A stretch of DNA of 64,000 nucleotides from Bacillus sp. OxB-1. Its GTDB lineage: Bacteria; Bacillota; Bacilli; Bacillales_A; Planococcaceae. The notes under the pieces are model-generated. The model did not search any database and had not been told where the DNA came from. It saw only the letters and a program-made list of their open reading frames with translations. The first letter of the stretch is position 1. The number at the start of each line of letters is the position of its first letter. The stretch lies in the NCBI RefSeq assembly GCF_000829195.1, contig NZ_AP013294.1, forward strand, positions 496,001-560,000, read 5' to 3'. Below are positions 28,413 to 62,088 of the stretch, one piece after another. A program made the translations under genes and the position numbers.

Positions 28413-28538
28413 AAGATCCCGACTTGCAAGCAATAGTGGCGCGAGTGCAAGCAACCGATCATTGTAGGCAAGCAAAGTGGAATAGCATACAAGCAAACAC
28501 CGAGCGAATGCAAACAATTTCTAGATGAACGCAAGAAA
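28413..28538 (-). repeat. intergenic array of six 21-bp units (TTGCTTGCAYTC core)
   Basis: Read on the minus strand, six consecutive units of exactly 21 bases begin with TTGCTTGC-like cores, followed by variable bases. Unit boundaries on the plus strand are 28413, 28434, 28455, 28476, 28497 and 28518. The last units are degenerate (TTGTTTGC, TTTCTTGC). It lies between the ends of yhfW and ppaC. The same unit and period recur at 61958-62062. Function unknown. Confidence 0.8.
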
Positions 28539-28568
28539 ACCCCAATCCACCCCCGCATATTTAAAAAC

Positions 28569-35645: not shown

Positions 35646-36851
35646 TTATTCCAATTCCATCTGTTTCGTTTCCGTCCCTAAAAACACGACGGCCAACACA
35701 CCAATGACGATGGCGCCGCAGAAGATGCCGAAGATTGTTCCGAAACCGTAATCTGCGGCGAGGAGCCAACCGACGAGCAGCGGTCCGAAAATGCCGCCGA
35801 TTCGACCGACAGCAGCCGCCATGCCGGAGCCAGTCGCGCGGATAGCGGTCGGGTATTGTTCCGGCGAATACGCATAGAGGGCACCCCATGCACCCAAGTT
35901 GAAGAAGGATAGCAATGCCCCTGATAGCAGAAGCATCGCGAGGGTATCCGCATTCCCGAAAGCAAGTGCACTCGCGGCGGTTCCAAGCAGATAGGTCGCC
36001 AAGACGAACTTCCGGCCGACTTTCTCAATGAGCCAAGCCGCGGTAAAGTAGCCCGGCAACTGGGCAAGTGTCATGAGCAGGACATAACCGAAGCTCTTGA
36101 TCATACTAAATCCTTTCAAGACCATGACACTCGGCAGCCAAAGGAACATACCGTAATAAGAGAAGACGACCGTGAACCAGACAATCCACAGCATCATAGT
36201 CCGACGTGCATACTTCTTCGACCAGATGCCTTTCATTTTGGACATGATCGTTTCCTTCGGCTTCCCTTCTTGTTCGAATTTCGGGGAATCAGGTAAGTTC
36301 CGTCGGAGGTAAATGGCGTAAAATGCAGGTAACGCGGTAATGACCAGCGCAATCCGCCAACCGTAATCCGGAATGATGAAATAGGCGATCAACGCCGACA
36401 GCAACCAGCCCGCCGCCCAAAAGCTTTCCAGCAGGACGACAACCCGTCCACGCTCTTTCGCGGAGACGCTTTCCGACACTAATGTGGAAGCGACCGGCAA
36501 TTCACCGCCAAGTCCCGCCCCTACTAAAAATCGCAATACGAGGAAGGCGGCCAATGTAGTCGTGGCCGCTGATAATCCGCTCGCTACCGAAAACAGGACA
36601 AGCGTCAGCATGAAAACCTGTTTTCTCCCAATCCTGTCGGCCAACAAACCGAAACAAAATGCACCGACTGCCATCCCGATCGAGTTCACACTGCCGATCC
36701 AGCCCATTTCGGAAGGCGATAATTGCCAATCGACCGCAATGGCTGCAATGACGAAAGATAAAATCCCAACATCCATTGCATCGAACATCCAGCCTGTCCC
36801 GGCAATCCCTAATAATTTATTGCGAGTAATCGTTTGCTTCCCAGTTGCCAT
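35646..36851 (-). CDS. niaP: MFS transporter NiaP-like (YceI, niacin uptake)
   Basis: 401 residues, twelve membrane helices. The first helix GWMFDAMDVGILSFVIAAI and the motif A GLLADRIGRK match the YceI/NiaP branch of organic-acid transporters, which import nicotinate or nicotinamide. A short TGT-AAAG-ACA dyad (36881-36890) lies 30 bases upstream and could be a NiaR site. The start ATG is preceded by GAGAGG. The nicotinate substrate is inferred from similarity only. Confidence 0.75.
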   Translation of the reverse strand: MATGKQTITRNKLLGIAGTGWMFDAMDVGILSFVIAAIAVDWQLSPSEMGWIGSVNSIGMAVGAFCFGLLADRIGRKQVFMLTLVLFSVASGLSAATTTLAAFLVLRFLVGAGLGGELPVASTLVSESVSAKERGRVVVLLESFWAAGWLLSALIAYFIIPDYGWRIALVITALPAFYAIYLRRNLPDSPKFEQEGKPKETIMSKMKGIWSKKYARRTMMLWIVWFTVVFSYYGMFLWLPSVMVLKGFSMIKSFGYVLLMTLAQLPGYFTAAWLIEKVGRKFVLATYLLGTAASALAFGNADTLAMLLLSGALLSFFNLGAWGALYAYSPEQYPTAIRATGSGMAAAVGRIGGIFGPLLVGWLLAADYGFGTIFGIFCGAIVIGVLAVVFLGTETKQMELE

Positions 36852-36880
36852 ATATATCTGCCTCTCGTTGTATATTCTGA

Positions 36881-36890
36881 TGTAAAGACA
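36881..36890 (-). promoter_or_regulatory. possible NiaR half-conserved operator
   Basis: TGTAAAGACA is a short dyad in the niaP promoter region. NiaR operators contain paired TGTC/GACA elements, so this is suggestive only. Confidence 0.3.
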
Positions 36891-36970
36891 ACTTAACTAT
36901 ACGACAATTGTCGAGTCTTCACAATGCCCACACTGAAAAAAATAATTCTTTTCGTCCTGCGTCGGGGAGT

Positions 36971-37290
36971 GTATCGAGGTTTCGGGGATACTTTGCGAGG
37001 TTTGGAGGAGATGTTGGGAGGTTTTCCGAAAACGTTGGGAGGCTGGGCTAAAACGTTGCGAAGTGAGAGAAGCGTTGAGAAGTTCGACGTGAGTGTTTCG
37101 AGGTGGTGGCATTTTGTTGCTAGGTGGACTTGGAACGTTGGGGACTTCCTTCCAAACGTTTCGAGCTCAGGGGAGAGGAAAAAACGTTGTGCAGTTGGAA
37201 GAAAGCGTTTCGGGGTGGTGACATTTTGTTGTGAGGTGGACTTGGAACGTTGAGGACTCCCTTCCAAACGTTTCGAGCTCGGGAAAAGAC
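36971..37290 (+). repeat. intergenic array of fifteen ~21-bp units (GTTKCGAGGT core)
   Basis: Fifteen consecutive units begin GTT(T/G)cGAgg and most end in AAC, AGC or TTTT; thirteen are exactly 21 bases, one is 19 and one 28. Starts are 36971, 36992, 37013, 37034, 37055, 37074, 37095, 37116, 37137, 37158, 37186, 37207, 37228, 37249 and 37270. Units 7-10 are repeated as 12-15, a 112-base duplication. It lies between the niaP start and the zupT terminator. A 124-codon minus-strand frame crosses it as heptapeptides but has no ribosome site. Confidence 0.85.
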
Positions 37291-37315
37291 TAGAATGACA
37301 TGGCCTTTCGATACA

Positions 37316-37350
37316 AAAAGAGCCGTCCGGTTGTCGGACAGCCCCTTTCT
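37316..37350 (-). terminator. terminator of zupT
   Basis: GTCCG / CGGAC with outer AAAGAG...CCCTTT pairs (37316-37349); on the minus strand T-rich sequence follows. Confidence 0.8.
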
Positions 37351-37362
37351 ATCATTATTCGT

Positions 37363-38172
37363 CTATGCAACGAGTATTAGACTGATGGCCATAACCGCCA
37401 TTCCCGCCATTAATCCGTAAATGGATAAATGGGCTTCATCGTACTTTTGCGCAGCCGGCAACAATTCATCAAGAGAAATGAACACCATGATGCCCGCGAC
37501 TGCTGCGAAGATGACGCCGAACATGATGCCGTTCAAAAATGGCATCAGTATCAAAAATGCCACAATCGCACCGACCGGTTCCGCAAGTCCCGACAAAAAT
37601 GACAGCTTAAAAGCCTGCTTCCGGTTGCCGGTTGCGTAAAAGATCGGGATGGCGACAGCAATTCCTTCCGGGATATTGTGAATAGCGACTGCGATTGCAA
37701 TGGCGACACCGAGTGTCGGGTCTTGCAAGGCCGATGTAAATGTCGCAATTCCTTCAGGAAAGTTGTGGATGGCGATCGCCAACGCTGTAAACATCCCCAT
37801 CTTCTTCAGCTTGGCATACTCATCATTCGAAGGACCCGCATCCACATCCTCAACACTCTTTACTTCATGCGGATTGCCGATGGCCGGGATGAAATGGTCG
37901 ATCAGCGCAATGAGCAGCATTCCGCCGAAAAACCCGGCGACTGTCATCCAATAGCCTTGCGTCATGCCAAGTTCTGCAACTAGCTCATCTTTCGCTTTGA
38001 CAAAAATTTCGATGAGCGAGACATAAATCATGACACCCGCCGAGAACCCCAAGGCTATCGATAAGAATTTAGTATTCGTCCGTTTTGTGAAAAAGGCAAG
38101 TAAACTACCGATGCCCGTCGCCAACCCCGCAAACAGGGTGAGGGCAAAGGCATAAAGAATCGTTCCGTCCAT
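37363..38172 (-). CDS. zupT: ZIP family divalent metal transporter (ZupT)
   Basis: 269 residues, eight membrane helices, with the metal-site helices IHNFPEGIATF and IHNIPEGIAVA and the LAEPVGA helix. ZupT proteins import Zn and also Fe, Mn and Co. The ATG has AAGGA ten bases upstream. The promoter carries an MntR-box-like sequence in its spacer, which would favour manganese as physiological cargo; that is inference. Single gene. Confidence 0.9.
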   Translation of the reverse strand: MDGTILYAFALTLFAGLATGIGSLLAFFTKRTNTKFLSIALGFSAGVMIYVSLIEIFVKAKDELVAELGMTQGYWMTVAGFFGGMLLIALIDHFIPAIGNPHEVKSVEDVDAGPSNDEYAKLKKMGMFTALAIAIHNFPEGIATFTSALQDPTLGVAIAIAVAIHNIPEGIAVAIPIFYATGNRKQAFKLSFLSGLAEPVGAIVAFLILMPFLNGIMFGVIFAAVAGIMVFISLDELLPAAQKYDEAHLSIYGLMAGMAVMAISLILVA

Positions 38173-61957: not shown

Positions 61958-62062
61958 TTGATTGCACTCTGAGTCAGATTGCTTGCACTCCTGCCTCACT
62001 TGCTTGCACTCCAATACCGGTAGCTTGCACTCATGCCAAGTTTACTTGCGCCCAACCGCCAT
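61958..62062 (+). repeat. intergenic array of five 21-bp units (TTGCTTGCAYTC core)
   Basis: Five units of exactly 21 bases start at 61958, 61979, 62000, 62021 and 62042, each beginning TTG(C/A)TTGCACTC or close (TAGCTTGCACTC, TTACTTGCGCCC) plus nine variable bases. They lie after the DUF4179 gene and before the terminator at 62089. The same unit recurs inverted at 28413-28538. A stop in the first unit excludes translation in that frame. Confidence 0.85.
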
Positions 62063-62088
62063 TTTCTTACAATAGAGGCCTGAAGACC

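Follow-up and report, generated by a model that had tools for sequence, protein, structure and literature searches.

Bacterial minisatellites, or VNTRs, are tandem repeats in which the number of units varies between relatives, and direct repeats of protein sites at about two helical turns occur in the iterons of plasmid origins and in centromere arrays such as parC. The BIME/REP elements of Enterobacteria, Pseudomonas and Stenotrophomonas are extragenic, lie at gene ends, are species-specific and bind proteins (PMC2817692, PMC1525189). In the marine Beggiatoaceae, TAACTGA repeats form contiguous 7-bp units, located mostly just upstream of start codons (PMC4679880). Interspersed repeats in bacteria are old knowledge, and what would be new here is the architecture. 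The initial annotation of this DNA knew of no named family with such a unit, and we likewise found no description of such arrays in the open-access literature, an earlier description outside open access being possible.

The window analysed here is a stretch of 64,000 nucleotides from the genome of Bacillus sp. OxB-1 (G000), a bacterium that is a Sporosarcina. It contains an array of short direct repeats that belongs to a family spread over the chromosome. Our analyses suggest, with a probability of about one half, that these arrays, which lie at transcription-unit borders, are helically phased sites for a putative DNA-binding protein specific to the lineage.

The array between niaP and zupT

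The array and its surroundings comprise the following features.

35646..36851, minus strand: niaP-like transporter gene, downstream neighbour of the array (open reading frame list)
36852..36969, minus strand: niaP upstream region, retained in relatives without the array (comparison with relatives)
36970..37289, plus strand: 15-unit array with the core YGTTKNGARGT (unit table, lag-21 statistic, sequence)
36970, 36991, 37012, 37033 and 37054, plus strand: starts of units 1 to 5, the unit at 37054 being 19 bp long (unit table)
37073, 37094, 37115, 37136 and 37157, plus strand: starts of units 6 to 10, the unit at 37157 being 28 bp long (unit table)
37185, 37206, 37227, 37248 and 37269, plus strand: starts of units 11 to 15 (unit table)
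37094..37178, plus strand: internal duplication, first copy, about 85 bp (about 83% identity at a 112-bp offset)
37206..37290, plus strand: internal duplication, second copy (about 83% identity at a 112-bp offset)
37315..37345, minus strand: terminator-like hairpin with a T-run, just past the zupT stop and directed at the array (by eye, conserved in the sister species G035; the consensus terminator scan gave only a T-run-poor plus-strand reading)
37363..38172, minus strand: zupT-like transporter gene, upstream neighbour of the array (open reading frame list, orthologues)

The initial annotation had described an intergenic array of fifteen units, thirteen of them exactly 21 bases long, each with a conserved start and a variable rest. 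This description holds. The array sits between niaP and zupT, and the unit table gives 21 bp for 13 of the 15 units, with one unit of 19 bp and one of 28 bp. The identity at lag 21 across the array is 0.463, as compared with 0.272 ± 0.024 in shuffles (maximum of 5000, 0.361); among the other lags from 15 to 27, lag 19 reaches 0.33, lag 20 reaches 0.32 and the remainder stay at or below 0.30. The 112-base block that had been reported as duplicated is indeed a duplication, although of a different length: 112 bp is the offset between the copies, over which only about 85 bp recur. This offset amounts to five units plus 7 bp, because of the 28-bp unit. The core motif alone is not enriched within the window (56 matches against 54 expected), and the special feature of the array is its spacing, not the core motif by itself.

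Related arrays in the genome and the family

The window genome is a single contig of 3.59 Mb, in which a two-core pattern with at most 3 mismatches matched 166 times in the forward and 221 times in the reverse direction, against 3 and 9 matches for the backwards control. A four-unit profile built from sequence only was searched genome-wide and combined with a unit scan of the fetched regions, yielding 41 raw calls. Three or four of these are doubtful, leaving about 38 arrays with a total length of 13.8 kb, and nearly all of them are intergenic. Beyond what the initial annotation had read, the window array is one of many.

To avoid self-selection, the unit profile was compiled from 386 units, each recognised solely by its neighbours at a distance of ±21 bp. 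The first 11 positions spell Y G T T K N G A R G T, with an information content of about 13 bits; positions 12 to 19 hold little information, and positions 19 to 21 are A-rich. The strand of the core contains 12% C and 35% G, and the minus strand is thus C-rich and G-poor. Neither the core nor the variable spacer contributes inverted symmetry to the profile, and all units within any one array share one orientation. Single-unit steps measure 21 bp in 222 of about 245 cases, the rest being mostly 17–20 or 22–23 bp. The arrays are concentrated between 1.36 and 2.04 Mb, about a fifth of the chromosome, where 23 of 37 are located; the origin and terminus themselves were placed only roughly, from sparse GC skew. 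A different tandem repeat of about 21 bp, GGAACTGTCATGGCACCGGT, was observed 0.8 kb from one array of this family (L046, 1085–1271; G000:C1, about 1456085–1456271).

Their placement relative to genes bears on what the arrays might do. The neighbouring genes, as read from sequence, look like ordinary housekeeping genes with no common theme. For the 40 arrays with two called neighbours, 25 gaps are co-directional, 12 are convergent and 3 appear divergent, some of these last involving doubtful short open reading frames. Of 37 arrays, 21 have an intrinsic terminator directed at them within 110 bp, compared with 7% of random placements; since random placements include positions inside genes, the fairer control is the number of terminators pointing away from an array, which is 4. 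In the co-directional gaps, the G-rich strand is sense in 14 cases and antisense in 11, a random orientation to the genes.

The location just past terminators would also suit an RNA element, in which readthrough of the neighbouring terminator transcribes the array and the repeated word binds a protein or loads Rho on the C-rich strand; the minus strand, C-rich and poor in G, has little structure. We nevertheless regard such an element as unlikely, considering that the orientation to neighbouring genes is random, that Rfam gives no match across the window array, and that it is hard to see what a spacing of two DNA turns would mean for an RNA. A Rho-dependent terminator (rut) on the C-rich strand is not favoured, for the same reason of orientation. 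Folding of the window array differs little from that of shuffles, with z scores of -1.84 and -0.48 for the two strands, neither much better.

The window genome harbours a second 21-bp family with the core GCTTGCACTC, which gave 147 two-core matches and none for the backwards control, and which is also present in G003, G005 and G013. Two short arrays of this family lie in the window.

28421..28540, minus strand: short GCTTGCACTC array beside a terminator-like hairpin (period scan, sequence, pattern)
61960..62066, plus strand: short GCTTGCACTC array beside a terminator-like hairpin (tandem repeat finder, sequence, pattern)

By eye, the orientation of this second family in G000 seems to follow the GC-skew arms, being mostly plus below 1.27 Mb and above 3.3 Mb and mostly minus between 1.27 and 2.3 Mb, unlike that of the YGTTKNGARGT family. 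For the latter, we rejected replication-oriented marks such as KOPS, as its orientation does not track GC skew in a by-eye comparison. A search for dif with the B. subtilis consensus found nothing.

Among relatives, the architecture recurs with other cores. A first, narrower pattern gave no matches in the genome collection; a broader one matched in Filibacter tadaridae, Sporosarcina sp. BP05, E16_8 and ACRSM and picked up numerous tandem repeats of 21 bp from distantly related taxa (Nostoc, Treponema, Sinomonas), which we took as chance. No relatives of the arrays were found in phage and plasmid collections; ten viral contigs each gave a single pattern match. Other Sporosarcina species carry drifting versions of the core (AACGTTGTTAAGTTAGG..., GTGTTGTTAAGTTTG...), arrays of TAGTCGTTT are found in three species (80, 81 and 35 triple matches), and CGGACTTCA arrays occur in another genus of Planococcaceae. 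Certain cores are alike (TATGAGCG, TATGATCGG, TATGCGCG), a likeness that may reflect drift from one ancestor. In Filibacter tadaridae (G082), several such arrays lie within about 90 kb of contig C54 (71–163 kb; L082 and L083). The GGACTTCA pattern read backwards, used as a control, gave 50 matches in G061, which probably indicates that this genome has a 21-bp family of its own, with a core like ACTTCAGG.

A sequence-blind scan for any period between 10 and 60 bp, covering the window together with roughly 2.0 Mb drawn from 14 other genomes of the Planococcaceae, revealed 61 intergenic periodic events. The periods of 20–22, 40–42 or 60 bp account for 42 of them and each other period for at most 5; a few of the 42 are doubtful by eye, and some of the events at other periods are coding repeats or N runs. 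The sole outgroup control, 100 kb of E. coli, gave one event, with a period of 18. Of 39 arrays in these other Planococcaceae, 21 have a terminator directed at them, compared with 5% of random placements. Some arrays have a period of 20 or 20.5 bp (G066, G063, G068), so what the arrays have in common is a spacing close to two helical turns and not a fixed 21 bp. The initial annotation had equated its 21-bp unit with two helical turns and saw it as suiting a periodic protein-binding platform, a reading that is partly supported: the lock to about two turns stands, and, given these relatives, the figure of 21 bp is better taken as an approximation. It had also named a lack of the 21-bp spacing in other copies as a finding that would speak against the array, and the spacing is present in them.

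The periods of 20 and 20.5 bp cannot keep a reading frame, and they exclude a coding reason for the spacing. Open frames of 71–124 codons do cross the window array, as a gene for a heptapeptide-repeat protein would demand. The deviations from the regular spacing are mostly not multiples of 3, and in the sister species no frame of the array has fewer than two stops and the long minus-strand open reading frame has no intact counterpart. A conserved protein of this kind, the other finding that had been named as adverse, is hardly credible, and we reject it on the grounds of the frame-breaking indels and these stops. Together with the random orientation to genes, the indels argue that the array acts as DNA and not as protein or, most likely, as RNA.

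Growth and possible function of the arrays

Orthologous arrays were located in the sister species G035 through their flanking genes for about 30 arrays, and 25 of them were compared in detail. Between G000 and G035, the substitution rate is 0.093 (0.068–0.118) in the core, 0.201 (0.149–0.254) in the spacer and 0.089 in the nearby flanks, the core and spacer values being taken from units of orthologous arrays defined by their neighbours only. The core differs about half as much as the spacer, which indicates that it is held back relative to the spacer. As a whole, orthologous arrays are more diverged than their flanks (0.84 versus 0.91 identity), and they differ between the two species in length and unit number.

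Growth has left a trace in the spacers. At odd unit lags they are no more similar than spacers of different arrays (0.33–0.35; 0.345 at lag 1), and at even lags, up to lag 16, the similarity amounts to 0.39–0.59. The even-lag similarity suggests that the arrays of G000 were enlarged mostly by blocks of 2, 4 or 6 units (42n bp). A strict rule of even units only was rejected, and we regard the pattern as a tendency, since the window duplication spans five units plus 7 bp and odd expansions are seen in other lineages, some genomes having single-unit expansions.

At the niaP–zupT locus, eight relatives (L202–L209) have zupT adjoining niaP (whose orthologues are 84–86% identical) across a gap of about 95 bp, in which the niaP upstream region is present and the array is absent, whereas the gap measures about 510 bp in the window genome and in G035. 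Most simply, the array was gained in the window lineage, loss elsewhere being the alternative.

The main rival to a protein-binding platform is a selfish or neutral repeat of the minisatellite type, which grows by recombination or slippage, is harmless at gene ends, and has a core that promotes its own duplication. The differences in unit number and higher-order blocks between the sister species agree with such a repeat, as do the faster divergence of the arrays than of their flanks and the empty niaP–zupT site in relatives. An extreme case is seen in G014, where 44 near-identical copies of another 21-bp unit, GCTAGTACATTGCGCGCGGTG, lie beside a more degenerate array (L033, 395–1316). However, the spacers of adjacent units are no more alike than those of different arrays, unlike the products of slippage, the core is constrained, a single period dominates unrelated arrays in many genomes, and the loci are independent in sequence. 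We consider this explanation a serious possibility, though not a probable one.

The independence of the loci also bears on the idea that a transposase-like enzyme spreads arrays or units among intergenic sites in the way that REPs are mobilised by RAYTs. Co-evolution of RAYT and REP is documented elsewhere among bacteria (PMC2817692), and a similar process would fit words that are specific to a lineage and sites that are new in one of them. Nevertheless, only 13 pairs of loci share at least 18 identical bases, against 4–15 under the null from the unit profile, and the lack of excess sharing indicates that the common core does not stem from recent copying between loci. Such copying was rejected as an explanation because the sharing is no greater than the core profile predicts. 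Moreover, by eye, neither conserved element ends nor target-site duplications were seen, and the units contain no palindrome, so mobilisation appears very improbable.

We therefore return to helically phased sites for a DNA-binding protein. The architecture, the distribution, the constraint on the core, the loss of frame, the absence from the niaP–zupT gap of relatives and the family-wide spacing are computed, and from them we infer protein binding, the protein and its role. The 11-bp core of about 13 bits has the typical size of a protein site, and one site would be present per unit. As the cores repeat at two helical turns, bound molecules would share one face of the DNA, where they could touch one another or introduce a bend. 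About 38 platforms of this kind would be distributed over transcription-unit borders, for the most part past a terminator and with no fixed orientation. Their likely role would be to keep the DNA between units organised or insulated, through a roadblock, contact with the nucleoid or control of supercoiling. The arrays would grow and shrink through multi-unit duplication, mostly of even unit numbers (42n bp) in the window genome, with selection on core and spacing preserving the sites as the spacer drifts. The protein and the core would have changed together in other lineages.

Several observations count against a platform. The core words differ strongly between lineages, requiring the protein to change too; the fast-evolving spacer and the changing unit number are satellite-like; part of the core conservation could stem from conversion between the units of one array; and 9–10% of the steps deviate from 21 bp, shifting the helical phase.

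On a broader scale, it is conceivable, albeit rather doubtful, that the Planococcaceae share an undescribed chromosome-organising system, in which a fast-evolving putative DNA-binding protein and a lineage-specific core word at two turns would mark transcription-unit borders at dozens of sites, the spacing being conserved while protein and word co-evolve. If the arrays are protein platforms, they would constitute a widespread and unnoticed class of Gram-positive chromosomal sites in which the spacing is conserved and the sequence is not, and which sequence-similarity searches would miss. They would also provide a test case for the joint change of a DNA-binding protein and its hundreds of sites, and might show how adjoining transcription units are insulated in Gram-positive bacteria. 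Even as mere selfish DNA, they would represent a class of repeats whose two-turn period calls for an explanation.

Comparison with known systems

The arrays share with minisatellites a unit number that differs between G000 and G035 at orthologous loci. In contrast to minisatellites, neighbouring units are not the most alike except in the core, and the period is common to dozens of unrelated arrays. In CRISPR loci, nearly identical repeats of some 20 bp or more are separated by longer unique spacers, whereas an 11-bp degenerate core alternates here with a 10-bp spacer. Iterons, which lie at a replication origin with a cognate Rep protein, and parC differ in their setting: the present arrays occupy about 38 chromosomal intergenic sites among housekeeping genes and are without relatives in plasmid and phage collections.

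The TAACTGA repeats resemble the arrays in being direct repeats of a short word that are abundant between genes and have been proposed as protein-binding sites, and in that their mechanism of spread is not known. Here, however, the unit is 21 bp long with a variable spacer, the arrays lie mostly past gene ends, and TAACTGA is absent from the core.

The closest analogue is the BIME/REP elements, to which the arrays do not belong but which may work alike. Both are extragenic, present in many copies, built of lineage-specific words and often arrayed; both are found at gene ends and in convergent gaps, with suggested roles in chromosome organisation and termination. The units of BIME/REP are imperfect palindromes of alternating orientation, whereas those described here are direct and non-palindromic, with one orientation and a two-turn period, and are not known to have a cognate transposase; lacking both the palindrome and the alternation, the arrays are not members of that family. 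The DNA-organising role that we propose for the arrays is nevertheless similar to the one that has been suggested for BIMEs.
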